This document shows, piece after piece, positions 3,512 to 56,288 of a stretch of DNA of 64,000 nucleotides (positions are counted from its first letter, which is position 1; the number at the start of each line of letters is the position of its first letter). The position numbers and the translations under genes were made by a program. The notes under the pieces were generated by a model, which ran no database searches, was not told the origin of the DNA, and saw nothing but the letters and a program-made list of their open reading frames with translations. This DNA comes from Chryseobacterium gleum (lineage in GTDB: Bacteria > Bacteroidota > Bacteroidia > Flavobacteriales > Schleiferiaceae), in contig CAMCXO010000009.1 in NCBI GenBank assembly GCA_945883565.1, positions 1 through 64,000 on the forward strand. The letters are read 5' to 3'.

Positions 3512-3554
3512 GCCAAAGGTTTGGAGGCCAAGTTAACACAATTGGCTTATGGGT

Positions 3555-4292: not shown

Positions 4293-4350
4293 TTGAAAAT
4301 TTAAGGGAACAGTGCAAAGATAATCAGTTTGCTAGTGAAATTTGTTAAAG

Positions 4351-4380
4351 AAAAAAGCGGGCGCTTTTTTTGGCCCGCTT
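4351..4380 (-). terminator. Terminator downstream of ppa
   Basis: Stem AAGCGGGC (4355-4362) pairs with GCCCGCTT (4373-4380). The minus-strand read-out ends in a T-rich run. It lies 25 bases past the ppa stop and separates fumC-ppa from the FkbM gene. Confidence 0.75.
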
Positions 4381-4404
4381 CTTCCATACCAAAAATAAAG
4401 CACT

Positions 4405-4950
4405 TTAAGCGCTCGGGAATGTTTGCTTATAAAGTTCTATGCTGTCGGCTACAATTTCATAGGCCTTCTGCCTTCCCTGAAAGTCCTCTACTCTAACTTC
4501 TTTGTTTTCCAATGCCTTATAGTCTTCAAAAAAGCGTTTCATCTCTTTCATGGTATGTGGTGCCAAGTCAAAAATGTTGTGAATGTGGCTATGGGCCATA
4601 TCGTTTTGGGCCACAGCAATAATTTTATCGTCGGCTTCACCTTGGTCAATCATGCGCATTACCCCAATTACCCTTGCCTCAATCATACACAAAGGCGGTA
4701 ATTCAACAGAAGTGATAACCAAAATATCGAGCGGGTCTTTGTCTTCGCAATAGGTTTGCGGAATAAACCCATAATTGGCCGGATAATGCACGGCAGAATA
4801 AAGAACCCTGTCCAGCCGTATCATGCCAGTGTCTTTGTCGAGTTCAAATTTCCCTTTGCTGCCTTTAGAAATCTCAATGATGGCGGTAACTACTTGAGGC
4901 GCTTCGGCACCGGGATTAACTTCATGCCATGGATGTGCAAATGCGGCCAT
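4405..4950 (-). CDS. ppa: Inorganic pyrophosphatase (family I)
   Basis: A 181-residue cytoplasmic hydrolase that splits pyrophosphate to two phosphates and pulls biosynthetic reactions forward. It shows the family I signature [10 protein letters not shown] (about 78-87), with the three metal-binding aspartates, and the second acidic cluster [12 protein letters not shown] (about 111-122). [13 protein letters not shown] is the usual substrate loop. Length is normal for bacterial family I enzymes. It is 45 bases downstream of fumC on the same strand, so the two may be co-transcribed. Confidence 0.95.
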
Positions 4951-4995
4951 TTTATTGTTGCTTTTTAGGTGAATAATAATTTTTAGCTGTTTTTA

Positions 4996-6390
4996 TCAAT
5001 GATTGCCCGTCATAAGTTCGGGTCTTACCCATTGGTCGTATTGTTCGTTGGTTAGCAAACCCAATTCTAAAGCGGCTTCTCGCAGCGTTTTATGTTCTTT
5101 ATGGGCTTTTTTCGCAATTCGGGCTGCGTTATCGTAACCAATGTGCGGGTTTAAAGCGGTTACCAGCATTAAGCTGTTTTCGAGATGTCGCGCGATGATG
5201 GGCTCGTTGGCTTCTATGCCAACCGCACAATTATCGTTAAATGAAACGCAAGCATCGCCAATTAATCGTGCCGAATGCAGGACATTGGCCGCAATCATGG
5301 GCTTAAATACGTTCAATTGGAAATGGCCCTGACTTCCGCCAAAGCTAACTGCTACATCGTTGCCTATAACTTGTGCCGCCACCATGGTAAGAGCTTCTGG
5401 TTGGGTTGGATTTACTTTGCCTGGCATAATAGATGAGCCTGGCTCATTGTCGGGAATAATGATTTCGCCAATTCCACAACGTGGCCCTGAACTAAGCAAA
5501 CGGATGTCGTTGCCAATTTTCATAAGCGAAACGGCCACGCGTTTCAAAGCCCCACTTAGTTCAACCATGGCATCGTGGGCGGCCAATGCTTCAAATTTGT
5601 TTGGGGCACTTACAAACGGGAGTCCGCTAAGCAAGGCAATGTTTTCGGCCACTTTGGTGGCATAGCCTTTTGGGGTGTTGAGTCCGGTACCCACAGCGGT
5701 TCCACCCAAAGCCAATTCGGCTACCATTTCCAAGGCCGAGCGAAGCGCCCTCATGCCATTGTCGACCTGCTGAACATAGGCCGAAAACTCTTGCCCAAGG
5801 GTTAATGGCGTGGCATCCATTAAATGGGTGCGTCCGGTTTTAACAATGGTATTAAACATCAATGATTTTTGATGGAGGGTATCGCGAAGCTTTTGCAAGC
5901 CCGGCAGAGTTGTAGTGGCCAACATTCTATAGGCCGCAATGTGCATGGCCGTAGGAAAAGTATCGTTGCTGCTTTGCGATTTGTTTACATCGTCGTTTGG
6001 GTGAAGGACCTTTTTTTCATCGAGCAAATTTCCTCCCTGAAGCACATGGGCCCGATTGGCAATAACCTCGTTTACATTCATGTTGCTTTGGGTGCCTGAG
6101 CCGGTTTGCCAAATAACCAAAGGAAACTCGTCGTTAAGCTGTCCAGTCAGAATTTCGTCGCAAACCCGGGCAATTAAGTCAGATTTTGCAGCGTCTAAAA
6201 CCCCTAATTGGTGATTCGTTACTGCGGCAGCCTTTTTTAAAATGGCAAAGGCATGAATTATTTCGCGTGGCATACTGCCCTCAGAACCAATTTTAAAGTT
6301 GTTTCGGCTGCGCTCTGTTTGTGCCCCCCAGTAGCGATGGGCAGGAACTTTAACCTCGCCCATAGTGTCTTTTTCTATGCGGTAATCCAT
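4996..6390 (-). CDS. fumC: Class II fumarate hydratase
   Basis: A 464-residue, iron-independent TCA-cycle enzyme that interconverts fumarate and L-malate; the family forms tetramers. The [15 protein letters not shown] signature sits at about residues 318-332, with the catalytic serine loop. [16 protein letters not shown] (about 94-109) and [17 protein letters not shown] (about 183-199) are the other conserved blocks of the fumarase/aspartase superfamily. Histidine in [11 protein letters not shown] favours fumarase over aspartase. The start [16 protein letters not shown] is typical. Confidence 0.96.
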
Positions 6391-6776: not shown

Positions 6777-7598
6777 ATGCAAAACGATAAATTAAAAGCC
6801 TATTTAGCGCTTGCATCTGCCGCTGCAGCCGGTGGGTTAAATGCGCAGGTGCAGTACACAGACTTTGAGCCGGATTTGTTTTTACAAGGGCATAAACAGT
6901 TTTTAAAGGTAGATATTGACGGCGATGGCACAGACGATTTCGTATTTGTGGCCGAAGACACGTTGGTAACGGCAGTAAACGGAGGATATGCCGTGGCAAG
7001 ATTGCGTGCCGGTGGGTATTACAACATCAACAACCGGGTTTTGGGCGATGCTCCGAATAATTATGGCTATGCCAGCCAACTTGAGTTTGGCGACCCCATT
7101 GGCCCCGATGCAAATTTCGTAAATGCAGGCAGCATGGCGCTGGTGGTAGACGGCACTAGCCCTTTTAACGAACCTTGGAACGGAGGCGCATTCGATGGAT
7201 TTTTGGGCTTTTATTTCACCAAAAACGATACTGCCCGCCATTATGGATGGATGCGAATTGATGTTTCGGCGGATGGCAAAAGTTTAAGAGTAAAAGACGC
7301 AGCATACAGTACCATACCTGACACCGCCATATCAGCCGGTTTGAACCAACTTCAAACCGATGAAAACATATTACTAGACTTAGTGCAAGTAAAAGGCAAT
7401 CAACTTCAACTTAATGCCTATAAAGATTGGGCGGGTGCCGAGGTCTATTTATTTGATCTTTCGGGGAAATTGATATTCAAAGAGGTCTTTCTTGGCGAAG
7501 CCGTGGTTTGGCCTTTGCCCGAGGCATTAGGGCATGGCCTTTTGCAAATTCGCCAAAAAAACGGAAGGGCATTAAGTACACGTGTCTGGATACCTTAA
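6777..7598 (+). CDS. Secreted protein with C-terminal sorting-like domain
   Basis: A 273-residue exported protein of unknown function. The N-terminus (residues 1-24, ending GGLNAQ) looks like a signal peptide, though its hydrophobic core is short and alanine-rich. DIDGDGTDDFVFV near residues 46-58 is an FG-GAP/VCBS-type acidic calcium-loop motif. The last 75 residues (AEVYLFDLSGKLIFKE ... GLLQIRQKNGRALSTRVWIP) follow the pattern of a type IX secretion C-terminal sorting domain: beta-rich, a glycine before the last strand, a basic end. It is likely released or anchored at the cell surface. Related proteins are common in gliding and non-gliding Bacteroidota. Confidence 0.7.
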   Translation: MQNDKLKAYLALASAAAAGGLNAQVQYTDFEPDLFLQGHKQFLKVDIDGDGTDDFVFVAEDTLVTAVNGGYAVARLRAGGYYNINNRVLGDAPNNYGYASQLEFGDPIGPDANFVNAGSMALVVDGTSPFNEPWNGGAFDGFLGFYFTKNDTARHYGWMRIDVSADGKSLRVKDAAYSTIPDTAISAGLNQLQTDENILLDLVQVKGNQLQLNAYKDWAGAEVYLFDLSGKLIFKEVFLGEAVVWPLPEALGHGLLQIRQKNGRALSTRVWIP

Positions 7599-7649
7599 AA
7601 ACAAAGAACAGCTAACTGGCTTTTCCTTAAGGCAGTCTACCTTCGCCTT

Positions 7650-8852
7650 ATGAAGCCGCAGCCCTTGTTGGTTATTTTCATAACCATATTTATAGACCTA
7701 CTGGGTTTCGGCATCATCATTCCTATTTTACCTATTCACGCCATGGAATTGGGCGCCCCCTCATGGGTTATAGGATTGGTAGCCGCCTCTTTTTCTGCCA
7801 TGCAATTTGCTTTTGGCCCGTTTTGGGGTAATTTGAGCGACCGTTTGGGGAGAAGGCCTATTTTAATGGCGAGTATGTTGCTGATGGGGCTGTCTTACAT
7901 TTTATTCGCTTTTTCGGCCAAGTCTTTGGCCATTTTGTTTTTATCGAGACTTTTGGCCGGAGTGGCAGCGGCCAATATTTCGGCTGCACAGGCCTTTATT
8001 TCCGACATCACCCCACCCGAAAAACGCGCTAAAAATTTCGGGATTATTGGAGCTGCCTTTGGCTTGGGCTTCATTTTTGGCCCTCCATTAGGTGGTTTTT
8101 TAAAAGCCGATTATGGCTTGCATGCAGTGGGCTATGTGGCGGCCGGAATTAGCTTTTTAAACTTGTTGATGGCGGTATTTTGGTTACCCGAAACCTTAAA
8201 AGAACCCAATAAGGAAGCCCCACTTTGGGTAAATCCGTTGCAAAAACTGGGCGACGCAGCCATGCGCGATGGCATCGGACGTTTTATGCTGCTAACCTTT
8301 GTATTTGTAGTGGCTTTCAGCATGATGCAGGTAACAGCTGCTTTGTTTTGGGTTGAAGAATTTGGTTTAAGCGAAAAGCATGTGGGATACATGTTTTTAT
8401 ATATTGGTGTTATGGCGGCGGTTATACAAGGCGGATTAATTGGCAAATTTAATTTGTGGTTTGGCGAGCAAAAGCTCCTCATTACCGGGGCGGTTTTTAT
8501 GATGTTCGGACTCACATTAATGCCATTTGCACCTAAAAGCCATTTTTATTTTTGGGAATTCAGCTGTTTGGGCATCATCAGTTTTGGAAATGCTTTCTTA
8601 ACCCCAACCATTTCCAGCCTACTTTCGAGAATAAGTGGTGTAAAAGAACAAGGCTTAATTATGGGAGCTTCGGCTTCATTTGGTTCATTGGGTCGGGTTT
8701 TTGGCCCTTTATTGGGCGGCTGGCTGTATGGCTTTAGCTTTAAAGGCCCTTATCTGGTGGCAGGACTGTTAATGGGTTTTTGTACCTTTTTGAGCGTAAA
8801 AATTGTACAAAATCTTAAAGTCAGAGTTCATAACCAGAGCTTAAATACTTAA
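7650..8852 (+). CDS. MFS transporter, TetA/TCR-like
   Basis: A 400-residue inner-membrane permease with about 12 predicted helices, of the major facilitator superfamily. The loop 2-3 signature [14 protein letters not shown] (about 67-80) is the MFS motif A, and [10 protein letters not shown] near residue 20 is typical of the TetA-like drug:H+ antiporter branch. It probably exports a small molecule by proton antiport. The substrate is not visible; calling it tetracycline resistance would be over-reading. It is followed by murB on the same strand, 47 bases later. Confidence 0.85.
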
Positions 8853-8899
8853 GGCCTCGGCAATAAACAGCTTCGACATCTTCAACTTAAAGTGTTCTT

Positions 8900-9910
8900 A
8901 TGCTCGAAAACATATCGCTTAAATCGCGCAACACCTTTGGCATAGACGCCAAGGCAGAAAAATTGTTCATTTTAAAGAACGAGTCAGACTTGCCTGCTTT
9001 AAGAAATGAATTCGGTGAAAAAAGACCCTTTGTTTTAGGCGGAGGAAGCAATATTCTGTTTACCCGCGATGTGCAGGAACCCATATTGGCTATAGAAACT
9101 CAAGGCATTCGAACCATAGACCAAGGTGAAACCGTAGAGGTTTGGTCGCAAGCAGGCGAAAACTGGCACCAATTTGTGCGGTTTTGTGTAGAACGAGATT
9201 GGGGAGGTCTTGAAAACCTTTCTCTTATTCCCGGACAAGTAGGCACTGCCCCCGTTCAAAATATTGGCGCATATGGTGTTGAACTCAAAGATGTTTGCAT
9301 TGGGTTAAGGGCTTTCCATTGGATGAGCGGCAGCTGGCATACTTTTAATGCAGAACAATGTAATTTTGGTTATAGACATAGCATGTTTAAAGCGGAAGCC
9401 AAAGACCAATACATTATAACCGAAGTTGGTTTTCGCTTACAAAAACACCATCATCAGTTGCATACAGAATACGGAGATATTGAGCAGGAGCTTGAAAAAC
9501 TCGGAAAAACGAATTTCGGCATACAAGACATTTCGGAGGCTGTTATAAGCATTAGGCAAGGCAAATTGCCAGACCCCGAAGTATTGGGCAATGCAGGCAG
9601 TTTCTTCAAAAATCCTTTGGTTGATTTAGACCATGCCCAAACCCTGCAAAAGTTGTATTTCAATTTGCGCACGTTTCCACAAATTGACAATCCGGAAAAG
9701 GTAAAGCTCCCGGCAGCTTGGTTAATAGAACAAGCCGGATGGAAAGGCTACCGACGCGGTAATTGTGGGGTTCACGTAAAACAGGCTTTGGTTTTGGTTA
9801 ATTATGGAAATGCCAAAGGCGCCGACATGTTAAAACTGGCAAAAGACATTCAGTACGATGTTTTCCAGAAGTTTGGCGTTCAACTTGAAATGGAGGTTAA
9901 TGTTTATTAA
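8900..9910 (+). CDS. murB: UDP-N-acetylmuramate dehydrogenase
   Basis: A 336-residue flavoenzyme that reduces UDP-GlcNAc-enolpyruvate to UDP-MurNAc with NADPH in peptidoglycan precursor synthesis. The FAD-binding core has GGGSNILF (about 48-55) and LIPGQVGTAPVQNIGAYG (about 112-129). FGYRHSMFK (about 157-165) and the active-site segment GNAGSFFKNP (about 230-239) carry the catalytic serine. LPAAWLIEQAGWKGYRRG near 273-290 is the usual C-terminal block. Length and the tyrosine-containing loop fit type I MurB. Confidence 0.95.
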   Translation: MLENISLKSRNTFGIDAKAEKLFILKNESDLPALRNEFGEKRPFVLGGGSNILFTRDVQEPILAIETQGIRTIDQGETVEVWSQAGENWHQFVRFCVERDWGGLENLSLIPGQVGTAPVQNIGAYGVELKDVCIGLRAFHWMSGSWHTFNAEQCNFGYRHSMFKAEAKDQYIITEVGFRLQKHHHQLHTEYGDIEQELEKLGKTNFGIQDISEAVISIRQGKLPDPEVLGNAGSFFKNPLVDLDHAQTLQKLYFNLRTFPQIDNPEKVKLPAAWLIEQAGWKGYRRGNCGVHVKQALVLVNYGNAKGADMLKLAKDIQYDVFQKFGVQLEMEVNVY

Positions 9911-10036
9911 CAGCATTCCCTGACATCTGTTTTGCAGTTTTAAATCAAAGGTTGAACACATAGTATACAGTATTCGTCAACTCAGGAATGGGCAAGGAGG
10001 TAAGATTTGGCGTACACTTGTCAATATCATTGAGCC

Positions 10037-10732
10037 ATGTCTAGTTCAAGCATCCCTATCCGAATGTTGGCAGAAGCCGACAGACCCAGAGAAAAACTCA
10101 TGTTGAAAGGACGTTCGGCGCTTAGCGATGCCGAGCTTATTGCCATTTTATTGCAAACCGGCACGCGTAACCGGTCGGCATTGGACATTGCCCACGACAT
10201 TTTGCGGGCGTGCGATGATGATTTAACAGCCTTGGGGCGTTTAGATTTGAATGCACTGGAGAAGTTTGACGGAATTGGATCGGCAAAAGCCGTAACCCTT
10301 ATCAGTGCCCTTGAATTGGGTTTGCGTAGGGCCCATTGGGAAGGCCGAAACAAAAAAAAGGTTCAAGGCAGCAAAGAAGCTTTTGATGCTTTATATCCCG
10401 ATTTCGCCGACTTAGATCATGAGCAATTTTGGGTTCTTTATTTAGGCAATTCGGGCCGCATTTTAGGAAAGAAGTGCATTTCTAAAGGAGGCATTACGGG
10501 CACTGTGGCCGATGTGCGTATAATTATGAGGTATGCCCTCGAATTTCGAGCCACCGGCATTATCCTCGCTCATAATCACCCTTCGGGCACCTTAAAAGCA
10601 TCGGAAGCTGACATTCGTTTAACCAAGCGCATACGTGAATCGTCTAAAATTATGGATGTTAATCTGCTCGACCACTTGGTAATTGGCGACAGGGCTTACC
10701 TTAGTTTTGCCGACGATGGTTTGTTGGAATAG
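10037..10732 (+). CDS. radC: RadC family JAB/MPN domain protein
   Basis: A 231-residue protein. The N-terminal helix-hairpin-helix region includes GIGSAKAVTLISALELG (about 76-92). The C-terminal JAMM/MPN domain has the zinc-site signature HNHPSG followed by a spaced aspartate (HNHPSGTLKASEAD, about 176-189). It is annotated historically as a DNA repair protein, but later genetics in E. coli did not support a direct repair role, so the function is open. It ends 15 bases before the epimerase gene and may lead that operon. Confidence 0.92.
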   Translation: MSSSSIPIRMLAEADRPREKLMLKGRSALSDAELIAILLQTGTRNRSALDIAHDILRACDDDLTALGRLDLNALEKFDGIGSAKAVTLISALELGLRRAHWEGRNKKKVQGSKEAFDALYPDFADLDHEQFWVLYLGNSGRILGKKCISKGGITGTVADVRIIMRYALEFRATGIILAHNHPSGTLKASEADIRLTKRIRESSKIMDVNLLDHLVIGDRAYLSFADDGLLE

Positions 10733-10747
10733 AGTGCAATAAAAGGC

Positions 10748-11836
10748 ATGTTAAAAATCGCTCAATTGGTAGGCGCAAGGCCTCAGTTTATAAAATGTGC
10801 ACCGGTTCAAAAAGAACTCGACCGTTTGGGCGTAGGACATTTCCTCATTCACAGCGGACAACATTATGATGAGGCCATGTCGGAGGCCTTTTTTAAAGAA
10901 TTAAACATAGCCCCACCCAAGCACCAACTTAACTGGCCACTTCAATCAACGGAAGCCATTGAAATAGTTTCTCGGGCCATTGCAGATGTGTTGGAGCGCG
11001 AAAAACCTAATGTTTTAATAGTGTATGGTGACACCAATACCACGCTGGCAGGGGCTTTAGCGGCTGAAAAAACAGGGACACCTCTGGCACATATAGAAGC
11101 TGGTTTGCGCTCTTTTAATCGGGCCATGCCCGAAGAATACAACCGCGTAAAAACGGATGCCTTAAGCAAATGGCTTTTCTGTCCCAATGAAGAATCGGTA
11201 GAAAACCTCTCAAAAGAAGGCATTTTCACTACCCATGGCCGATGGGTAGAATGCACGGGCGATGTAATGCTCGACAACCTTTTACATTTGCTAAATAACC
11301 GGACAACGTCCCATTTAGGCCAGTGGCAGAATACACCTTTTGCTTTGCTGACCTTGCATCGCAACTTCAATGTAGATCATACAGTGCGTTTAAAAAGCTT
11401 GATTAATAATGTTCTGAAATTGGCCGAATTACAGAACACCTCGGTTTTATGGATTTTGCATCCTCGAGTTCAAAAATCACTGCAAACAGATAGTGAGTTG
11501 ATTCAAATTAGCCGGCATCCTTTGCTGCATTTAGAAGAGCCTATGTCATACACCTCTACCATACACCACACAATAAAGGCAGAATGGGTGATGACTGACA
11601 GCGGTGGCTTGCAAAAAGAAGCAGGCTATTTAGGTAAACGCGTGTTGATTTTACGGGCCGAAACCGAATGGATGGAATGGGTTGACAGGAGCCAGGCATT
11701 TTTGGTTGATGACGATTTAAACAAGATGGTATTGGCTTTGTCGGTCCCAATTACCGAGAAAAAAGACTTGAATGCTTCCTTTAAAAGCGCTTCGGCAAGC
11801 ATTGTAAAAACCTTAATAAACACCCTAAAGCCATGA
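10748..11836 (+). CDS. wecB: UDP-N-acetylglucosamine 2-epimerase (non-hydrolysing type)
   Basis: A 362-residue GT-B fold enzyme that converts UDP-GlcNAc to UDP-ManNAc, a precursor for surface polysaccharides. Motifs: GARPQFIKCAPV (about 8-19), HSGQHYDEAMS (about 35-45), VYGDTNTTLAGALAA (about 91-105), HIEAGLRSFNRAMPEEYNR (about 112-130), and HRNFNVD near 202 where the family has HRxEN. The last difference (Phe in place of Glu) is a deviation worth noting. It is the first of seven plus-strand genes that overlap end to start, and its TGA overlaps the next ATG by 4 nt. Confidence 0.85.
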   Translation: MLKIAQLVGARPQFIKCAPVQKELDRLGVGHFLIHSGQHYDEAMSEAFFKELNIAPPKHQLNWPLQSTEAIEIVSRAIADVLEREKPNVLIVYGDTNTTLAGALAAEKTGTPLAHIEAGLRSFNRAMPEEYNRVKTDALSKWLFCPNEESVENLSKEGIFTTHGRWVECTGDVMLDNLLHLLNNRTTSHLGQWQNTPFALLTLHRNFNVDHTVRLKSLINNVLKLAELQNTSVLWILHPRVQKSLQTDSELIQISRHPLLHLEEPMSYTSTIHHTIKAEWVMTDSGGLQKEAGYLGKRVLILRAETEWMEWVDRSQAFLVDDDLNKMVLALSVPITEKKDLNASFKSASASIVKTLINTLKP

Positions 11837-12996
11837 TGGCGTCAGCTTGGCGCTACTCGCAGAATTTTGGCCATTTGGCTTTCCATTCCACCGGACGAAA
11901 ACTGCTGTGGTGGCAGCTTTCGAAAAAGATAGAACCGACTTATTCGACTACTGATCTGGCGGCAAAAGCAGCCATGACCTGGCTTTTTCGCGCTCAGGAT
12001 GTTCAAAACGATTCTGGATTTGGAACCTTTTACCTGAAAAAGGGGTGGACTTCTTCCTACCCCGAAACATCAGGTTATATTATTCCCATTTTGCTTCTTG
12101 CTGCCCGGGTTTATCAATGGCCTGAAGCCAGAAATAGAGCGCTCGATTGTGCCAATTGGCTGTTAAGCATTCAGCACCCAAATGGGGGTTGGGCCGGTGG
12201 TTATGTTCATCAAAATCGTCCACCTATAGTTTTTAATACCGCACAGGTAATTCGCGGATTATTGGCGGCCTACCAGGAAACTAAACATATTAAGTATTTA
12301 GATGCTGCCACCCGAGCCGGGCAATGGTTGTGTACTATTCAAAATGCTTTGGGTTATTGGCAAAATCATGTTTACCTCAACCAAATTCGGGTGTATGATA
12401 CGTATGTGGCTGCTCCTCTGGCCGCTCTATATCTAGTTACACAAAATGAGGTCTTTAAACAAGCAGTTGAACGTCAATGTGATTGGGCCATTCAACAAAA
12501 ACAAATGCCCAACGCTTGGTTTCGAGATGCCGACAATACTGTAAAGAACAACCACAAACCCATTACCCATACACTGGCTTATACCCTAGATGGTTTAATA
12601 GAATGCGGTCTTTTATTTAATCGAAACGATTGGGTAGAAGCGGGAGCCCAAACAGCTAAAAAATTGGCCGAACTGGCTCTGAGTCATCAAGGTTTAATGG
12701 GGCGTTACAACAGCAAATGGGAAGGCAGCGAGGCTTTTCTACAAACCGGTGCTGCCCAATTATGCATCGCATGGCAAAGGCTCGAAAACCCTAATCAACC
12801 AATATGGCTGGAAGCACGTTTAAAAGTGATGGGTCAATTAAGAGCCAATCAGATACCTTCTTGGGCCGGACGAAACTTGGCAGGTGGATTGTTTGGATCT
12901 TCGCCTTTTTGGGGAAGGTACGAAGCTTTCGGAATTCCAAATTGGGGGGTTAAATATTATTTAGAAGCTTTGCTATGGCCATACGCGACCAAATAA
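11833..12996 (+). CDS. Alpha/alpha-toroid protein of a glycan cluster, function unknown
   Basis: A 387-residue soluble protein without a visible signal peptide. It has repeated helix pairs with GGWAGGY- and tryptophan-rich turns: NWLLSIQHPNGGWAGGY (about 112-128), QWLCTIQNALGYW (about 165-177), and similar blocks later. This pattern fits the (alpha/alpha)6 barrel shared by terpenoid-cyclase-like and six-hairpin glycosidase-like folds. Similar proteins sit in polysaccharide loci with epimerases and deacetylases. It could be a glycan-processing enzyme, but no catalytic motif is clear and I assign no reaction. It overlaps wecB by 4 nt and the next gene by 22 nt. Confidence 0.7.
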   Translation: MMASAWRYSQNFGHLAFHSTGRKLLWWQLSKKIEPTYSTTDLAAKAAMTWLFRAQDVQNDSGFGTFYLKKGWTSSYPETSGYIIPILLLAARVYQWPEARNRALDCANWLLSIQHPNGGWAGGYVHQNRPPIVFNTAQVIRGLLAAYQETKHIKYLDAATRAGQWLCTIQNALGYWQNHVYLNQIRVYDTYVAAPLAALYLVTQNEVFKQAVERQCDWAIQQKQMPNAWFRDADNTVKNNHKPITHTLAYTLDGLIECGLLFNRNDWVEAGAQTAKKLAELALSHQGLMGRYNSKWEGSEAFLQTGAAQLCIAWQRLENPNQPIWLEARLKVMGQLRANQIPSWAGRNLAGGLFGSSPFWGRYEAFGIPNWGVKYYLEALLWPYATK

Positions 12997-13871
12997 GGGC
13001 TCTAATTCCGGGTTTTTTACTAAAGGGCTTTAGGTTCTACAAAAAGCAAAAGCGTAACCGTGAATTGCATGCCATGGCTACTGCAGGAAAATCTTTGCAA
13101 AAGAGTGATTTGGTTATTCAGCTTAAGGACATGGGCATTTGCCCCAATGACGCCTTAATGGTTCACTGTAGAATGAGCAGTATAGGCCATTTGGCTCAAG
13201 GAGCACAAACATTGTTAGAAGCCCTTCAGGAAGCGGTGGGCCCCAGTGGTCATCTTCTGATGCCCTCATCTCCTGTTGCGGAATTGCAATATCAATACGC
13301 CTTAAAACAACCGTTGTTTGATGTACGCCAAACACCGTCGGCCATGGGGGCATTGAGCGAACTTTTCAGACAACAACCTAATACCTTAAGAAGTTGGCAC
13401 CCGACTGAGCCGGTTTGCGCGTCGGGCCCTCTTGCAAACTGGTTAATAACCGGCCACTTTAAAGCCCTTACCCCTTACAATGCCCAATCTCCTTACGCCA
13501 GATTGTATGAGCTGGATGGAAAAATTTTATACATTGGGTTAACTCTAATAAATGCGGGCACCCATTTACATACTTTAGAAGATGCTGTAGATTTCCCATA
13601 TCCGGTTTACCATTCAGAAATTTTCACTTTTAAAATAAAAGATCCACATGGCCATGTTCATGAAGTAAAAACCAGAGTGCACAACCCCGAATGGAGCGTG
13701 AAAAGAAGATGTGATGAATTAATACCTGGCTACGAACAAGGAGGAGTACTTAAACGCATCCAACTTGGCCAAGCCAATTGTTTACTTTTACAGGCCAAGC
13801 CATTTTTTGAAAAAATGCAAAGTGATTTCGAAAAATCGGGCATCACCATGTACCATCCATATGGAATCTGA
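12975..13871 (+). CDS. AAC(3)-family N-acetyltransferase
   Basis: A 298-residue acyltransferase related to aminoglycoside 3-N-acetyltransferases. The family blocks are visible: VHCRMSSIG (about 56-64, HSSxxxxG-like), GGxTPSAMGALSEL-like FDVRQTPSAMGALSELF (about 115-131), RSWHPTEPVCASGPLA (about 139-154) with the active-site histidine, and THLHTLED (about 196-203). In glycan clusters members of this family acetylate amino sugars, which fits the neighbours better than drug resistance. It overlaps the toroid gene by 22 nt and the SDR gene by 11 nt. Confidence 0.8.
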   Translation: MAIRDQIRALIPGFLLKGFRFYKKQKRNRELHAMATAGKSLQKSDLVIQLKDMGICPNDALMVHCRMSSIGHLAQGAQTLLEALQEAVGPSGHLLMPSSPVAELQYQYALKQPLFDVRQTPSAMGALSELFRQQPNTLRSWHPTEPVCASGPLANWLITGHFKALTPYNAQSPYARLYELDGKILYIGLTLINAGTHLHTLEDAVDFPYPVYHSEIFTFKIKDPHGHVHEVKTRVHNPEWSVKRRCDELIPGYEQGGVLKRIQLGQANCLLLQAKPFFEKMQSDFEKSGITMYHPYGI

Positions 13872-14619
13872 AAAATCAAACGCCGGACATAGAACTATGC
13901 TTATTACAGGGGCCTCAGGGGGCTTGGGGCGGGCTTTGGTTAGGCATTTTGCAGATAAAAATATGCAATTGGTTTTACACTACCACCAAAGCAAAGTGGC
14001 GCTTGAAGACCTTGTGAACCAATTGAAATGGTTTATGGAGCCCATATTGGTTCAGGCCGATTTGCGCTCTGAAGAAGCCATAGTAAATATGTGCGGTAGG
14101 GCCCAAAAAGAAACAGGACACGTTGACATTTTAATTAACAATGCAGGAATAAGTGGATCGGGCTTAACCTGGAAAGAAACACTAGATAATTGGAATCACA
14201 TTATTCAAATCAACTTAAGTGCGCCTTTTTTGGTAATGAAACATTTAATACCGGGTATGCGTTACAGAAACTGGGGCCGAATTGTAAATGTTACATCTAT
14301 AGTGGCTCAAATAGGAGTAGCCGGGGCTTCGGCTTATGCAGCTTCTAAAAGTGGACTTTTTGGACTTACCGCTTCGGCAGCTAAAGAGCTCTCGACAAAA
14401 GGCATTACCGTTAACAGCATTGCTTTGGGCTATATGGACGAGGGTATGATTCATACTTTAAATCCTACGGCGATTGATGAGCTTAAGCAGAGAATTCCCC
14501 TTCGGACTCTTGGTAAACCAAACCAATACGCTGCTTTAGTCGACTATCTCATTTCAGAAGAAGCTGCCTATATGACCGGGCAAACCCTTAACCTGAACGG
14601 CGGTTTGTATGCCCACTAA
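13861..14619 (+). CDS. Short-chain dehydrogenase/reductase, FabG-like
   Basis: A 252-residue NAD(P)-dependent oxidoreductase. TGASGGLGRAL near residues 16-26 is the cofactor-binding TGxxxGxG motif, NNAG near 89-92 the structural motif, and Ser...YAASK (about 149-163, with AYAASKSGL) the catalytic Ser-Tyr-Lys set. The start at ATG 13861 overlaps the previous stop by 11 nt; an upstream open frame would run far into the previous gene and is not needed. It probably reduces or oxidises a sugar or acyl intermediate of the glycan operon. FabG activity cannot be excluded. Confidence 0.85.
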   Translation: MESEKSNAGHRTMLITGASGGLGRALVRHFADKNMQLVLHYHQSKVALEDLVNQLKWFMEPILVQADLRSEEAIVNMCGRAQKETGHVDILINNAGISGSGLTWKETLDNWNHIIQINLSAPFLVMKHLIPGMRYRNWGRIVNVTSIVAQIGVAGASAYAASKSGLFGLTASAAKELSTKGITVNSIALGYMDEGMIHTLNPTAIDELKQRIPLRTLGKPNQYAALVDYLISEEAAYMTGQTLNLNGGLYAH

Positions 14620-15928
14620 AATTGCCGTTGTTGTAGAAAAACCCAGCAATCGTTTACAATATGTTCTGGATTTTGTGCTGAAAAATGTCTGTGGCTTAGA
14701 ATGGAAATGGTACGTCCAAAGCGGCTCTGAAATTCCCGATCCAAGTGAACCAATTTTGATTTATGGCCAATTTTCGGACACAGATTTTTCCATCCCTTCG
14801 GCCGGTTTGCTTTATAAAACTGGTGTAAAAGACCTTGATTTGTGGCCCGGTAAATGGGGGGATTTGCCTTGCTTGTTTTGTTCCGACAGCCCGCATTATC
14901 ACCTAAACTTCGACTTGTTCTCGGCTGTGTTTTATTGCATTAGCCGTTATGAAGAGTACTTGCCCTTCGAAGCTGACGAACATGGCCGTTTTCCACATAC
15001 CCAATCAGTGGCCTTTAAGCTTGATTTTTTAAAACGCCCATTGGTTAACGAATGGATTTATGCCTGGTTGAAGTCGTTTTCACAATTTTATGGCCATCGA
15101 ATTGAAATACCCAAGCCCAAAACAAAGTATTTAATGAGTATTGATGTGGACAACTCATTTGCATTTGAAGGCAAAGGTATTTTTCGCAATGTTTTCGGGC
15201 TATTGAACGATGTAAGAGCACTTAGATTTGAGGCAGTTAATATGAGATTGGCATTTTGGAAACAACGTACGCCTGACCCTTTTAACAACTATGAATTTCA
15301 ATTAAATGCCTGCAAAGAACATGGAGTAGACCTTTTATACTTTTTACTCTTCTCAGAGTTTGATACTTATGACCGCAATTTAACTTACTACAACAACCGC
15401 AACCGACAACTGGCGCGCTATTTAGCCGATGAAGCCCAGCTTGGTGCCCACCCCTCTTATAGATCAAATCAGGAATTCCAAATATTACATTCCGAAATCA
15501 AAGCTTTAAATGAACTTACCCACCTCAAAGTAGAACACAGTCGACAACATTATTTAAAATTGAAGTTTCCCGAGACCTATGAGAATTTAATGAAACTGGA
15601 AGTGGGTCACGATTATAGTATGGGCTATTCACGCGAAACTGGTTGGAGGGCCAGCACATCCTCGTCTTTTAACTTTTATCATTTAGGTCTCGAGAAAACC
15701 ATGCCCCTACAAGTTCACCCCTTTCCTTTTATGGACTCGGTGTATTTCGATCAAAAAAAATGGAGTGCCAAAGAAGCCCACTCAGAAATTTTCTACTTCT
15801 TACAACAAGTTAAAGAATTTGGCGGAAGTTTTATTCCGGTTTTCCATAACCGAACGTTTAGCGAGATGATTCATGAATGGAAAGGATGGAGATCACTGTA
15901 TATCGACCTACTTAAAGCCATGAAATGA
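14609..15928 (+). CDS. DUF7033 / NodB-like polysaccharide deacetylase family protein
   Basis: A 439-residue protein. The N-terminal 150 residues are a DUF7033-like domain (SRYEEYLPFEADEHGRFP at about 113-130 is typical). A divergent NodB-type deacetylase barrel follows: MSIDVDNSF (about 173-181) with the paired aspartates, GAHPSYRSN (about 276-284), EHSRQHYLK (about 309-317), GWRAS (about 347-351) and VHPFPFMD near 369-376. These are the motif 1-5 positions of metal-dependent polysaccharide deacetylases. It would de-N-acetylate a glycan or glycolipid. No signal peptide is visible. It overlaps the SDR gene by 11 nt and the next gene by 4 nt. Confidence 0.75.
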   Translation: MPTKIAVVVEKPSNRLQYVLDFVLKNVCGLEWKWYVQSGSEIPDPSEPILIYGQFSDTDFSIPSAGLLYKTGVKDLDLWPGKWGDLPCLFCSDSPHYHLNFDLFSAVFYCISRYEEYLPFEADEHGRFPHTQSVAFKLDFLKRPLVNEWIYAWLKSFSQFYGHRIEIPKPKTKYLMSIDVDNSFAFEGKGIFRNVFGLLNDVRALRFEAVNMRLAFWKQRTPDPFNNYEFQLNACKEHGVDLLYFLLFSEFDTYDRNLTYYNNRNRQLARYLADEAQLGAHPSYRSNQEFQILHSEIKALNELTHLKVEHSRQHYLKLKFPETYENLMKLEVGHDYSMGYSRETGWRASTSSSFNFYHLGLEKTMPLQVHPFPFMDSVYFDQKKWSAKEAHSEIFYFLQQVKEFGGSFIPVFHNRTFSEMIHEWKGWRSLYIDLLKAMK

Positions 15929-16842
15929 TACGTTTGATAGATAAAAATGAAATAGATGTTTTTAAGTGGGATAATTGTGTAGAATCGGATAGGATAAGCC
16001 TGCCATATGCCTTGCATTGGTATTTGGATTTATGCGCCAACGATTGGGAAGCCTTGGTATATAATGATTATCAAAATGTAATGCCACTACCATTTAATAA
16101 AAAATATGGCATTTCATATATATACAGACCTTATGGGACCCAGCAATTGGGCATTTTTGGAAAAGAAAAATCACCGGAGTTAACCAAATACTTTCTTCAG
16201 CATATCCCTAAAAAATATAAATGGGTAGACTATTTTTTCAATGAAGATACCATAGAGGTTGATTATCCAAACTGTAAATGGGAGCCACAGATTAATCAAA
16301 TATTGGATTTGCGCAACAGCTATCAAAGTATTTATGAAAACTACAGCACCCAAACCATTAAAAACTTAAACAAAGCTAAAAAAGCGAACTTCAGGATATT
16401 CGAAAACGACAGCCCAGATGTTCTAATCCGAATGTTTCAAAACAATAAGGGAAAAGAAATTTCAAGTTTGGATGAATCGAAATACAGTAAAATGAGACAA
16501 ATCATGTATGCCTTTTTACATAAAAGAAAGGGATTTATTTGGACTGTATATGACGATAGAAATACGGCCTGTTCGGGCATTTTTATCATGCAATTTAAAA
16601 ATCGGCTTATACTCATGTTTACAGCTGCAGACGATTATGGCAAACAACATGGAGGGATGAGCTTTCTTCTGAACGAACTTTTTATACAGTTTAGCGAAAA
16701 ACATTGGATTTTTGATTTTGAAGGTTCCAATTTGGAAGGATTGGCTCGCTTTAATTCGGGCTTTGGTGCTGAAAAACGAATCTATTACCGAGTGGTACGA
16801 GATACATTGCCGTGGATAGTTTCTTCAATATTGAATAGATGA
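15925..16842 (+). CDS. FemAB/GNAT-like (BioF2-type) acyltransferase
   Basis: A 305-residue protein with two GNAT-like halves of the FemAB/BioF2 type. The C-terminal half holds FIWTVYDDRNTACSGIF (about 199-215) and FDFEGSNLEGLARFNSGFGAEKRIYY near 269-294 (given in parts: FDFEGSN, ARFNSGFG), a hallmark of these acetyltransferase-like proteins. In Bacteroidota such genes often follow DUF7033 deacetylase genes, as here. It would attach an acyl or aminoacyl group to the glycan product; the donor is unknown. It is more AT-rich than the genes upstream. It overlaps its neighbours by 4 nt on each side. Confidence 0.7.
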   Translation: MIRLIDKNEIDVFKWDNCVESDRISLPYALHWYLDLCANDWEALVYNDYQNVMPLPFNKKYGISYIYRPYGTQQLGIFGKEKSPELTKYFLQHIPKKYKWVDYFFNEDTIEVDYPNCKWEPQINQILDLRNSYQSIYENYSTQTIKNLNKAKKANFRIFENDSPDVLIRMFQNNKGKEISSLDESKYSKMRQIMYAFLHKRKGFIWTVYDDRNTACSGIFIMQFKNRLILMFTAADDYGKQHGGMSFLLNELFIQFSEKHWIFDFEGSNLEGLARFNSGFGAEKRIYYRVVRDTLPWIVSSILNR

Positions 16843-17537
16843 AAAATCGGATAGAACACCTCTTTTTCGACCTAGATCATACGCTTTGGGATTTTGAAAC
16901 CAATTCGAGAATAACCTTACTCGAGCTCTTCACTGAAACAGGTTTAGAGCATAAAGGGTTGGATTTCGAGCTTTTTTACAGCGCTTATAAAGCCATTAAT
17001 GAAGAACTCTGGAGTGAATACAGACAGAAGAAAATTGATAAATCGACTTTAAGGGCCCGAAGATTTGCGGAGGCTTTGTTGAGTGTGAGAGTGAATTCAT
17101 CTGAAATCGCTGAACATTTTGAAACAGAATATGTGGCGCGTTCTCCCCACAAAACCGCTTTAATGCCCAATGTAATGGAAACTCTACATTCTCTAAAGCC
17201 GTATTTTCATATTCACATCATAACCAATGGTTTTAGTGAAGTGCAAGATGTTAAAATAGAGAAGTCGGGACTTAAACCCTACATAACACATCGAATTACT
17301 TCTGATCTAGTTGGCGTTCATAAACCCGACCCTGAGATTTTTAGGCAAGCCCTTTTTTTAACCGGAGCCAAACAACGGAATTCGGTTATGATTGGCGATC
17401 ACCTCGAAGCCGATGTTTTAGGGGCCATGCATGCCGGTTTGGAAGCGGTGTATTTCAATCCTGACTTAAAGCCTCATAATCAAAAAATAAAGTATGAAAT
17501 TGCCAAGATGAGTCAGCTTTTGGATATTTTATTGTGA
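16839..17537 (+). CDS. yjjG: HAD-family phosphatase, YjjG-like
   Basis: A 232-residue haloacid dehalogenase phosphatase. FFDLDHTLWDFETNS (residues 9-23) holds motif I with the nucleophilic Asp and matches the YjjG non-canonical pyrimidine nucleotidase group. ITNGFSEVQ (about 128-136) is motif II, HKPDPEIF (about 163-170) motif III, and GDHLEADVLGA (about 185-195) motif IV. YjjG enzymes remove phosphate from UMP, dUMP and dTMP. In this operon a sugar-phosphate substrate is also possible. It is the last of the overlapping seven-gene string. Confidence 0.8.
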   Translation: MKNRIEHLFFDLDHTLWDFETNSRITLLELFTETGLEHKGLDFELFYSAYKAINEELWSEYRQKKIDKSTLRARRFAEALLSVRVNSSEIAEHFETEYVARSPHKTALMPNVMETLHSLKPYFHIHIITNGFSEVQDVKIEKSGLKPYITHRITSDLVGVHKPDPEIFRQALFLTGAKQRNSVMIGDHLEADVLGAMHAGLEAVYFNPDLKPHNQKIKYEIAKMSQLLDILL

Positions 17538-17550
17538 AGCCAATCCTGAA

Positions 17551-18369
17551 TTATTCCTTTATCAATTCGAAAAAAATGGCATTACACGGTTCTTTTTTTG
17601 AATTCATATCGATCAGTTTTAACAGGCTAATGATTGGCAACGAGATGATAATGCTAATACCCCAAAAAGGCTTTAAAAGCACATGACCAAATTGTAAGTT
17701 GAGAAAAAGTGTAGAGTAAAATTCATGCGCCCAGATGCCAAAGTATCCAATGTGTTTTTCTTCTGTTAGAACTTTTAATTTACTTTCTTTAAAAAGCCTA
17801 TTTAACAAATCGGAATTGTAAACCCTTTGTCGATTTTGTGATAGTTCGTAATGGGGCCAATTTTCACGGGCTCTTTTATAAAATCCCCATTTTATAATAT
17901 CATTTACGGGCGAATACACAAAGATACATCCTTTATTTTGGAGGTTGTCAGCTAGATGGTTCAGTGCATTTTGATCGTTATGGATGTATTGCAGAACGCC
18001 AATGCAGTATATAAAATTGGCTTTAAAAGGAAGGCGCATTTCTAAATTTCCCTCCACGAGTTTCAAATTTCGAATTTTATAATGTTTTTTTAAGGCTTCA
18101 AGCATTTCTATGTTTGAAGGCAATAGATCAATACCAATAAAATGAAGATTTGGATACTTTTTAGCTAAACGAATCAAATGATGTCCTTCACCAGCTCCTG
18201 CATCACAAATGGTGGCACCACTAGGCAGACATCGTAAGGCTTTATGCAATTTGGGCCAGAGAATCCAATTGCGTTGAAAAACCAAATCATTCCACCAATA
18301 AAATAGATAGATGAAATAGGGGTTATTTAATAGCCACTTAGGAAACTGATGATAAGATGTTTTGGGCAT
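17551..18369 (-). CDS. Class I SAM-dependent methyltransferase
   Basis: A 272-residue methyltransferase. ICDAGAGEGHHLIRLA near residues 54-69 is the SAM-binding motif I, FIGIDLLPSN (about 76-85) the acidic motif II, and FIYCIGVLQYIHN (about 113-125) motif IV. The C-terminal 60 residues are hydrophobic (HVLLKPFWGISIIISLPIIS in part), suggesting membrane association. The gene converges with the HAD gene, 13 bases apart, so it is outside the upstream operon. The methyl acceptor is unknown. Confidence 0.8.
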   Translation of the reverse strand: MPKTSYHQFPKWLLNNPYFIYLFYWWNDLVFQRNWILWPKLHKALRCLPSGATICDAGAGEGHHLIRLAKKYPNLHFIGIDLLPSNIEMLEALKKHYKIRNLKLVEGNLEMRLPFKANFIYCIGVLQYIHNDQNALNHLADNLQNKGCIFVYSPVNDIIKWGFYKRARENWPHYELSQNRQRVYNSDLLNRLFKESKLKVLTEEKHIGYFGIWAHEFYSTLFLNLQFGHVLLKPFWGISIIISLPIISLLKLIDMNSKKEPCNAIFFELIKE

Positions 18370-53356: not shown

Positions 53357-56125
53357 TTATTCCGTTACCAACAGCCGACCGATTTTCTTTTCGGCAGTGT
53401 TCGAAACTTCTAAGAAGTACAGACCGGGTTGTAAGAACCAATCTATGGCGATGTTGCCATTTTCTGCGGTGAATTGTCCGGTTTTTATTATTCGGCCCTG
53501 CAAATCGTAACAGCGGTAAGAAAGTGGCTTTGCGGTAATTTGGGGCCAAGAAATGTAAAATTGTCCGGTGTTTGGATTAGGGTAAATATTAAGGGTTGCA
53601 GCTGTTATGGGTTTGGGAAGAACCGGGCCTGACGACATATCGGGAATTCCGCCTAGAACGCCCTCAAAATATTCTAGTCCTCCGGCCAAATTGCCTACCA
53701 GCATATCGGGCAAAGTGTCGTGGTTTAAATAGGCCAATGCAGGGGCGGTTCTAACGCCTCTCATGGTACGGCTTTGGAGTTTATTGCCAGAGGGGCGTAT
53801 GCGAAATATAAGATTGGGACGAATAGGCGAGGCGGCTAATGCCGGGAGGTTGCATCCTATGGCAGTCATGGTGTTGTTGTTGTCAACATCGCCATAAAGG
53901 TTTGCTTTGAAGTTCAAAGTGGTTCCGGCTACGCTAATGTTTGGCGAAGGCAGGTTTCGGCTAAAGCAAATTTCGACCACAAGATTGCTTCGTCCGTCCC
54001 ATTCGAATGGTTGTGATAAACTGATGGTGTTGTTGCCTTGGGTAACCGAAAAAGGTGAAAAAGTTCTGTAAACTTCGGTTAGGTTGGATTGCCAATTGGT
54101 TAAGGAATCGACGGAGGTATGTGCAATGCTTATGTTTAGGTTGTAGATGGTGGGATTGTTGGAGCTGGTAATTTGAAAGCCGATACGGTCTATGAGACCT
54201 TTTACAAACCCTGAGGCTCTTAGTTCGTTGACAGTGATTAGGAATTGATTCCGGCCTACACGTTTTGAGGTTCCGAAAGGGCTTAGATTGTGGTTGGAAA
54301 TGTTTTCGTTGCCGGTGCCGATAGTTCCGATTATTTCGGATGGGTTGGATGCAATGTTTTGGAGGCTATCGAACTGAAGAATACCTTCGTCGTATGTGCC
54401 AACGAAGAGAATGGGACGGCCTTTGTATTCGAAAATGCTTGGCACACTGTAACCACTTAAGGAACCTGCAGTTTTGCTAAGGGTTGAAATGCCGCCAAAG
54501 AAATCGTTGGCCAGTTGGAAGTTTATTTGGCTGCCATTTGGAGGGTTTTGGGTAAAATAGCTCAATTTACCTGATTGGTTTCCAACTAAAATATCGAGCA
54601 AGCCATCTTGATTAAGATCGTATAGAAAGGGAGTGGCATATTGGCCTACATCTATTGCCGAAACCGAAGCTTGTTGAAGGCTAAGGTTGCCATTGGCGTT
54701 TTGAACGAAGTAATGCAGTTCGCCCTCTTCGGTACCAAGAAGCATATCGGCTAAACCATCGCCATTTAAATCGCCAAAAGACGGGTGGGCATTGCTGCCT
54801 AAAGAAAGGTTTGAAATGCCGGCAAAGTTATTGGTTTGGTACTCGAAAATGGCTTGGGTTGTGGTTCCTATGTTTTTAAAATGCCATAGTTCGGAGGTGT
54901 ATTGACCAGCGTTTACGAAGCGGCCTCGGGTTGACATAAACAAATCTGTTAGCCCATCGCCATCGAAATCGTAAAGAATGGGCAAAGCGGCTTCCCCGGT
55001 TTCTATCATGTTATTTTGCAGAAAGGCCTCGCTGTTTTTGCTAAAAATGGGTTGATTATCGGTGCCGTTGTTGGCATAAAACCAAACACTTTGAAAGTTT
55101 TCGGAAGCATCGGTAACGGTATTGGGGCTAACGAGGAGGTCGCGTTTGCCGTCGAAATTGGCATCTTCATAAAAGGAAGCCGGAAAAACATGTAGGTTAA
55201 CAGCTTGATTGTAGTTTGGGAACAAACTGTCTTGCGAAGACATGTGGGCAATGTCGAGGGTTCCATTATTGAAGACCGCTGTTAGATTGTTGAAAGCAAT
55301 ATCGCCAAGCAGTAGGTCTTTAAGGCCATTTCCGTTTAAGTCAAGAGCCAAAATGGTGCTGCCAGCGTGTAAGGTTTTATTGGGTTCGCTGTTTGGGTTT
55401 GTTGGGTTTTCTCGTTTGTTACCCGAGCAGGCATCGAGACTAACAGTATTGGAGGTAAAAGATTCAACAAAACCGCCAAAGCAGTCGGTACGAAGAAAGA
55501 ACTCGAGGCCACAGTTTTGGGTATTTTGGTGGTACTCGACTGCGGTTCCGAGTAAGGCGAAGGTTAAAATATCCACGGCCCCATCGTTATTCACATCAAT
55601 GATGGCTGGTATATCGGTTAAGAGATTGGAGATATTGGTGTTGTTTGGATTGGCAGGTGTGCCGTAATTGGAATTGAGGTGTTGTTGATTGCCCAAGGCC
55701 CATTGGAAATGCAAGCCGCCGGTTTGGCTCACGTTTTCGTAGACCCCTATACCCGTTAGAGTTTTGGTGAAGAGGTCTTTTTTTCCATCGCAGTTGTAGT
55801 CGACCAAAAGCATCCAGTGTTGAATTTTAGGGAAGGAATCTATCCAGGCCGGTTCAAAAACATAACGAGCCTGTCCGTTTAAGAGGCGGTTTTCGAAAGG
55901 AAGGATGCGGTCGCCCGAGCGGTCGAAGGCCACCAAATCGAGACGGTTATCGCCATTTAGGTCTATAGAGCTAAATTGCACGCTATTCATTCCGCCTGAG
56001 AAAGCATTGTGCAGGGTATCACCTTGGTAGAGGACTTTCAGCTTACTTTTTTGGGTAAAAAAGAGCGATTGTTGTGCATGTAGAAAGGAGGATAAAAAAC
56101 CCAGGACTAAAAGCCATTTTGGCAT
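53357..56125 (-). CDS. FG-GAP/VCBS repeat protein with type IX sorting domain
   Basis: A 922-residue secreted protein. Signal peptide at residues 1-18 (LLVLGFLSSFLHAQ). Many FG-GAP/VCBS motifs with DxNxDGxxD calcium loops: DLNGDNRLDLVAFD, DYNCDGKKDLFT, DVNNDGAVDILTF, DLNGNGLKDLLLGD, DFDGDGLTDLFM, DLNGDGLADMLLG and DLNQDGLLDILVG, forming a probable beta-propeller. The last 80 residues (LNIYPNPNTGQFYISWP ... DLQGRIIKTG ... GLYFLEVS) are a type A T9SS sorting domain. Likely surface-exposed and adhesive or binding. Start taken at ATG 56125. Confidence 0.9.
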   Translation of the reverse strand: MPKWLLVLGFLSSFLHAQQSLFFTQKSKLKVLYQGDTLHNAFSGGMNSVQFSSIDLNGDNRLDLVAFDRSGDRILPFENRLLNGQARYVFEPAWIDSFPKIQHWMLLVDYNCDGKKDLFTKTLTGIGVYENVSQTGGLHFQWALGNQQHLNSNYGTPANPNNTNISNLLTDIPAIIDVNNDGAVDILTFALLGTAVEYHQNTQNCGLEFFLRTDCFGGFVESFTSNTVSLDACSGNKRENPTNPNSEPNKTLHAGSTILALDLNGNGLKDLLLGDIAFNNLTAVFNNGTLDIAHMSSQDSLFPNYNQAVNLHVFPASFYEDANFDGKRDLLVSPNTVTDASENFQSVWFYANNGTDNQPIFSKNSEAFLQNNMIETGEAALPILYDFDGDGLTDLFMSTRGRFVNAGQYTSELWHFKNIGTTTQAIFEYQTNNFAGISNLSLGSNAHPSFGDLNGDGLADMLLGTEEGELHYFVQNANGNLSLQQASVSAIDVGQYATPFLYDLNQDGLLDILVGNQSGKLSYFTQNPPNGSQINFQLANDFFGGISTLSKTAGSLSGYSVPSIFEYKGRPILFVGTYDEGILQFDSLQNIASNPSEIIGTIGTGNENISNHNLSPFGTSKRVGRNQFLITVNELRASGFVKGLIDRIGFQITSSNNPTIYNLNISIAHTSVDSLTNWQSNLTEVYRTFSPFSVTQGNNTISLSQPFEWDGRSNLVVEICFSRNLPSPNISVAGTTLNFKANLYGDVDNNNTMTAIGCNLPALAASPIRPNLIFRIRPSGNKLQSRTMRGVRTAPALAYLNHDTLPDMLVGNLAGGLEYFEGVLGGIPDMSSGPVLPKPITAATLNIYPNPNTGQFYISWPQITAKPLSYRCYDLQGRIIKTGQFTAENGNIAIDWFLQPGLYFLEVSNTAEKKIGRLLVTE

Positions 56126-56288
56126 TTGGGAGAAATTTAGAAATTGGAAAAACATAAATGGGCTGTGAAAATAGCCAAGAATGATTAAGGAAGTGTGACC
56201 AACTTATCAAACGCTTGTTTTCAGCCATTTTGTTAAGATGGAAGTGAAGTAGGATGCCGAGCTGTTGGAATAGGTTGGTTATAATTTG

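Follow-up and report, generated by a model that had tools for sequence, protein, structure and literature searches.

What is made by an operon whose seven genes encode enzymes acting on an amino sugar but include no glycosyltransferase, flippase or polymerase? The question is raised by positions 10748-17537 of the 64,000-nucleotide stretch of DNA analyzed here as a whole (the window; the first 64,000 positions of contig CAMCXO010000009.1, assembly GCA_945883565.1, titled Chryseobacterium gleum). The operon genome is a 2.86-Mb draft of 64 contigs with 99% completeness, and the named records related to it belong to Flavobacteriales of the Schleiferiaceae/Cryomorphaceae type. In order, the genes encode a UDP-sugar 2-epimerase (EPI), a toroid protein (TOR), an AAC(3)-type acyltransferase (AAC), a short-chain dehydrogenase/reductase (SDR), a DUF7033 deacetylase (DEAC), a FemAB-like protein (FEM) and a protein of the HAD family (HAD). 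An initial annotation had proposed a co-translated operon that deacylates and acylates an amino sugar, noted correctly that genes for glycan assembly are missing from it, and concluded that the product could not be named. The proposal is supported, whereas the conclusion was too pessimistic: two of the genes encode homologs of VimE and VimA, and the genome carries a matching sortase and its cargo. We consider it somewhat probable that the operon provides the modification arm in a variant Vim-type biosynthesis of a linking sugar, the product of which is used by the sortase PorU for cargo anchoring.

The fifth and sixth genes carry most of this argument. DEAC matched DUF7033 (PF23019, 100.7 bits) and shared 24% identity over 382 aa with the genuine VimE of another genome (BLASTP E 1e-25), a reference protein that itself scored 675.8 bits on the VimE model. 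Residues D179, D181, H281, H314 and H413 of DEAC were invariant in an alignment of 11 sequences that included this VimE, and are candidate catalytic residues. In the VimE-bearing reference genome, the gene order was recA-like, FemAB-type, PIG-L deacetylase, vimE and glycosyltransferase-like; we take the FemAB-type gene behind the recA-like one to hold the position that vimA has in Porphyromonas gingivalis. FEM was 24% identical to the protein at this VimA position over 309 aa (BLASTP E 2e-13), and the same protein was the best match of that genome to a profile of the FEM family (112 bits). Because of these matches, we regard DEAC and FEM, which are adjacent in the operon and in most relatives, as homologous to the VimE–VimA pair at the level of sequence. 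FEM exceeded no family cut-off and had no NCBIfam match at E up to 0.1, hence none to the PEP-CTERM FemAB model (TIGR03019), and a search of the PDB with its sequence returned nothing. The AlphaFold model of FEM (predicted local distance difference test, pLDDT, 93.9) supported the initial FemAB-like assignment: it adopts a Fem fold and was closest to the aminoacyl-tRNA-dependent transferases Sbb17, Sba18, FemA and FemX (Z 21-23; the alignments to FemA, FemX and Sbb17 span 263-292 residues), whereas acetyl-CoA-type GNAT proteins scored below Z 15. As modeled, FEM shares its fold with enzymes that use charged tRNA as the source of their amino acids.

VimE and VimA make an N-aminoacyl linking sugar that is joined to cargo by PorU, the sortase of the type IX secretion system (T9SS) (PMC7468200). 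In P. gingivalis and Tannerella forsythia, VimE is proposed to strip the C2 acetyl group from a di-N-acetyl uronic acid made by the Wbp enzymes, and VimA to install serine or glycine at the vacated position; exchange of vimA swapped the amino acid, which is thus determined by VimA, both proteins are needed for cargo modification, and the authors left open whether they depend on the Wbp pathway (PMC7468200). Linking sugars vary, since Prevotella intermedia uses an N-alanyl deoxyhexose and lacks VimA, VimE, WbpB and WbpD, although its T9SS cargo is likewise joined via an amino acid N-linked to a sugar (PMC11969387). The portions of the literature covered here describe the cargo-anchoring sugar in only three oral species and do not mention loci like this operon or VimA together with aminoacyl-tRNA. 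For the substrate sugar, the amino acid and its tRNA donor, the pathway roles of EPI, TOR, AAC and SDR, and the use of the product by PorU, we infer the following steps. DEAC would take the N-acetyl group off an amino sugar, probably UDP-linked, and FEM would then attach an amino acid to the freed amine, probably from aminoacyl-tRNA. Enzymes encoded elsewhere would build the sugar into lipopolysaccharide (LPS), where the free alpha-amine of the attached amino acid would be the acceptor to which PorU joins the trimmed C-terminus of the cargo. Of the remaining enzymes, EPI may invert C2 of the sugar from gluco to manno, AAC may add a second acyl group, SDR may reduce that group on its carrier, and TOR may make a further change to the sugar.

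The operon genome has partners that fit such a product. It encodes PorU (1302 bits) and 88 type A C-terminal sorting domains (TIGR04183), of which 86 were over the cut-off; one cargo protein with such a tail lies in the window and is a possible target of the product (Table 1). WbpA-, WbpB- and WbpD-like genes are clustered next to PseB-type genes, with a WbpE-like aminotransferase gene located elsewhere; by sequence comparison, these Wbp-like genes map to contigs C6 and C1. Among solved structures, the closest to the WbpB- and WbpD-like proteins were 3q2i (deposited as a dehydrogenase) and 3mqg (deposited as an LPS acetyltransferase), both of which we take to be Wbp-pathway enzymes, and WbpE itself (3nu7) was among the best PDB matches of the aminotransferase (312 bits). 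In the cluster (L060, positions 7008-13285), the neighbors of the WbpA-, WbpB- and WbpD-like genes are PseB and additional genes suggestive of pseudaminic acid biosynthesis. The genome therefore resembles those of the Wbp/Vim pathway in its adjoining VimE and VimA homologs, in the presence of T9SS, PorU and numerous type A cargo proteins, and, as in T. forsythia, in its combination of Wbp-like genes with a 2-epimerase.

The gene arrangement is more than chance, because the order radC-[EPI-TOR-AAC-SDR]-DEAC-FEM-HAD, or subsets of it, recurs both in same-family genomes, whose proteins are roughly 30-60% identical, and in 75 named TOR loci. Inspection of the gene neighborhoods of TOR and DUF7033, which the initial annotation had suggested as a check, accordingly found the genes of relatives linked and not scattered. 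DEAC was present in 68 of 79 relatives and FEM in 47 of 48 same-family genomes, nearly always beside DEAC, and both were almost always single-copy in the family. Thus, DEAC-FEM is the conserved part within the family, and EPI-TOR-AAC-SDR is a variable insert between radC and DEAC. By eye, EPI and WbpB seemed to go loosely together in the relatives, an impression that carries no weight here. One locus (L203) has the order radC-DEAC-HAD and lacks FEM. Two EPI-TOR loci on records titled Candidatus Competibacteraceae (L132) and Chryseobacterium gleum (L131) are typical of other Flavobacteriales and may be mis-binned or mislabeled contigs. A recurrent neighbor of 1130-1190 aa in relatives was considered as PorU and rejected, having no BLASTP match to the PorU of the operon genome; its N-terminus resembles a B12-dependent mutase.

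Homologies, folds, motifs, conserved linkage, co-occurrence with PorU, and the presence of sortase and cargo all support the Vim-type reading, but several observations weigh against it. The co-occurrence comes from a survey of 395 Bacteroidota genomes, in which FEM scored at least 100 bits in 36, all 36 with a PorU match compared with 292 of 395 overall (Fisher p 1.4e-5); the test ignores phylogeny, the 100-bit threshold was chosen after the scores had been seen, only two PorU candidates were scored per genome, and three of the 36 PorU matches (G085, G165 and G199) were weak. Six Flavobacteriaceae genomes (G203, G207, G255, G271, G306 and G376) had DEAC and no PorU match; they also had no FEM or XrtF match. 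The operon itself contains no sortase, LPS or T9SS gene. DEAC scored 128.6 bits on the VimE equivalog model NF053580, far below the cut-off of 440, and is homologous to VimE without being an equivalog. The EPI-TOR-AAC-SDR cassette has no counterpart in the described Vim pathway. Finally, a WbpB-like gene was found in 35 of the 79 relatives and was missing from 44, although DEAC occurred in 68; some of the WbpB-negative relatives are incomplete drafts, and the gene was missing also from genomes with EPI and TOR (G001, G003) or with TOR and AAC (G009, G021, G042). Strict dependence on the Wbp pathway is therefore not supported: the classical Wbp backbone is not obligatory, the operon does not just reproduce the P. 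gingivalis pathway, and in many species a plain UDP-N-acetylhexosamine may serve as substrate. Compared with the Wbp/Vim pathway, the operon further differs in the low identity of its pair (24%), in its linkage to radC instead of recA, and in the added TOR, AAC and SDR (elsewhere a ligase and carrier). The initial annotation had named an exact match to a described polysaccharide pathway as a refutation; the match to the Vim pathway was partial.

Some of these observations would fit an amino-acid-substituted sugar for ordinary O-antigen, capsule or exopolysaccharide, with no protein anchoring and with the likeness to VimE and VimA reflecting shared chemistry only. N-alanyl sugars are found in ordinary O-antigens (PMC11969387), homologs of VimA and VimE exist together with Wbp genes in bacteria that lack T9SS (PMC7468200), a distant TOR-AAC pair (in locus L151) shares its contig with genes that look like glycosyltransferases, and the six genomes above have DEAC without PorU. 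We nevertheless think this unlikely, given that DEAC and FEM are near-universal and mostly single-copy in the family, unlike typical strain-variable O-antigen genes, that the operon has no glycosyltransferase, and that FEM at 100 bits or more never occurred without PorU in the survey.

The sortase served by the sugar could also be a different one, namely the exosortase XrtF, in parallel to the XrtA/PEP-CTERM systems, in which a FemAB-type protein and a polysaccharide deacetylase are paired near the sortase; this FemAB-deacetylase-exosortase pattern has been described (PMC7468200). In several same-family genomes, XrtF and the associated membrane protein TIGR04127, or at least one of them, are encoded a few kb upstream of radC-DEAC-FEM (L044, positions 1250-2282; also L043, L045-L047, L050, L052, L058, L071 and L072), with both identified in L044 and assigned by cluster membership in the other loci. 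The operon genome also has XrtF (131 bits), which lies on a different contig from the operon. Conversely, an XrtF-like exosortase was found in only 19 of the 36 FEM-positive genomes, the other 17 all having PorU, and FEM, as noted, matches no NCBIfam FemAB model, which sets the operon apart from exosortase A loci and weakens XrtF as the sole partner. We judge XrtF as the user of the sugar to be quite improbable and retain PorU as the more likely one.

The family assignments of the other genes bear on what the sugar carries. The initial calls of an epimerase, an AAC(3)-type acyltransferase, an SDR and a DUF7033 protein were all recovered (TIGR00236, PF02522, PF13561 and PF23019, respectively). 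EPI scored 229 bits on TIGR00236 (WecB family), over the cut-off; its nearest solved structure was the UDP-GlcNAc 2-epimerase 4neq (217 bits), followed by UDP-2,3-diacetamido-glucuronate 2-epimerases (about 205 bits), whereas the E. coli enzyme 1f6d scored 92 bits, less than half of the scores of these nearer relatives. AAC reached 109.9 bits on the AAC(3) model NF033082, for which the cut-off is 270, and a role as a resistance gene was rejected, as its scores were far under every NCBIfam resistance cut-off. SDR scored 217 bits on TIGR01830, under the model cut-off, and reached no equivalog cut-off; it resembles FabG, and its action may be on the acyl group and not on the sugar. Of the reactions initially proposed, namely making, oxidizing, acylating and deacylating an amino sugar, deacylation and acylation are supported, and part of the acylation would be aminoacylation. 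HAD was over the cut-off of the YjjG nucleotidase model (TIGR02254, 190 bits), so it need not act on a sugar; the assignment to the HAD family holds and the gene is conserved at the same place in relatives, but its role as a pathway phosphatase is doubtful.

TOR exceeded no Pfam or NCBIfam cut-off (GH88, PF07470, 21.2 bits against a cut-off of 26.6), and a search of the PDB with its sequence gave weak cyclase-like matches only. Its AlphaFold model (pLDDT 95) is an (alpha/alpha)6 barrel, in agreement with the initial call of a toroid, and has the AGE/GH88 fold, being equally close to AGE sugar 2-epimerases and GH88 glucuronyl hydrolases (Z about 31-32, 9-15% identity). Across 32 sequences, mostly from Bacteroidota and four from contigs labeled as other phyla, 27 residues were invariant, including E78, H246, Y250, N370, W371 and K374. 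Structure prediction had been proposed as a search for an active site; barrel and invariant residues suggest one, but do not reveal its reaction. TOR and an AAC(3)-like gene also adjoin in L151 (positions 2877-4942), L153 (positions 8901-11092) and L154, on contigs labeled Pseudomonadota and Gemmatimonadetes, with neither DEAC nor FEM nearby.

A second architecture suggests how the acyl group may be supplied. Of the 75 TOR loci, 28 encode a ligase that resembles amino-acid adenylation domains (TIGR01733, 309 bits in L092; DltA, 283 bits). The genes that follow it often encode a carrier protein (PF00550), a GNAT protein, a protein remotely similar to AAC(3) (PF02522), DEAC and FEM. SDR follows AAC in 18 of the 75, and SDR and ligase occur together in none (Fisher p 5.4e-5, phylogeny not corrected for). 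Since SDR and the ligase with its carrier alternate and are never both present, we read AAC as a transferase drawing on a carrier-bound group, which would be ligase-loaded in one lineage and SDR-reduced in the other. The ligase and carrier probably load an acyl or aminoacyl group, as in DltA/DltC-type activation, from which the loci differ in having an AAC(3)-like transferase as the neighbor; both are absent from the operon in the window. In Bacteroidales loci (L094, positions 4966-6258 and 10636-11931; also L083, L096, L102 and L150), two DEAC paralogs flank the TOR and ligase genes, which would fit the removal of two distinct acyl groups. The ligase and carrier genes, together with the top fold match of FEM, a tRNA-dependent peptide synthase acting on an aminosugar antibiotic, could also be taken to indicate a small aminoacylated metabolite or lipid (e.g., streptothricin-like) instead of a surface glycan. 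We hold this to be very improbable in view of the near-universal presence of DEAC and FEM in the family, their homology to VimE and VimA, and the lack in the operon of genes for the core of such a metabolite, for its export or for self-resistance. Extending the Vim-type reading, we tentatively raise the possibility that T9SS linking sugars are made in much of Bacteroidota by an undescribed, Wbp-independent route, in which a new nucleotide-sugar enzyme of toroid fold, together with a transferase of the AAC(3) type, would add a carrier-bound acyl group, SDR-reduced or ligase-loaded, before a VimE/VimA-type pair adds a tRNA-derived amino acid.

The layout of the operon is as the initial annotation had described it: seven open reading frames (ORFs) on the plus strand, without internal stops and each starting with ATG, with junction overlaps of 4, 22, 11, 11, 4 and 4 nt from 5' to 3' (Table 1). 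For SDR, a mechanical ORF list gives an upstream TTG at 13765, and the ATG at 13861 yields the 11-nt overlap. By the same list, overlaps occur at 18 of 40 same-strand junctions in the window and are in themselves nothing unusual there; the unbroken run of six stands out. The gap from the end of radC to the start of EPI is 15 nt, and radC is not thought to belong to the pathway. On the opposite strand, 13 nt past the operon and convergent with it, lies a gene for a SAM-dependent methyltransferase (17551-18369), which was not seen at the same place in the relatives looked at. Elsewhere in the window, GT2-like and GT4-like glycosyltransferase genes occur beside a riboflavin gene on the other strand, about 16 kb from the operon (33166-35546), and genes for DUF2339 and DUF3999 proteins form an overlapping pair (46813-50413).

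Table 1. Features of the operon and associated genes, in window coordinates.
Feature	Coordinates	Strand	Basis
radC, conserved upstream neighbor	10037..10732	+	PF04002; synteny
EPI, non-hydrolysing UDP-sugar 2-epimerase, WecB/WbpI type	10748..11836	+	TIGR00236; PDB relatives
TOR, (alpha/alpha)6 toroid	11833..12996	+	AlphaFold model; invariant residues
AAC, AAC(3)-type N-acyltransferase	12975..13871	+	PF02522 (Antibiotic_NAT), 171.6 bits
SDR, FabG-like reductase (from ATG 13861)	13861..14619	+	PF13561, 173 bits
DEAC, DUF7033, VimE-like deacetylase	14609..15928	+	PF23019; NF053580; BLASTP to VimE
FEM, VimA-like aminoacyltransferase, Fem fold	15925..16842	+	BLASTP; AlphaFold fold comparison
HAD, YjjG-type nucleotidase, co-translated; pathway role doubtful	16839..17537	+	TIGR02254; place kept in relatives
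T9SS cargo protein, type A sorting tail; possible target of product	53357..56155	-	PF18962 (Por_Secre_tail); TIGR04183, 40 bits

With this locus, DUF7033 and an operon found across the family gain a function that can be tested in environmental Bacteroidota. In addition, the modeled fold of FEM suggests aminoacyl-tRNA as a donor for VimA, and the alternative gene arrangements point to two interchangeable acyl-supply modules and to an as yet unassigned toroid enzyme.

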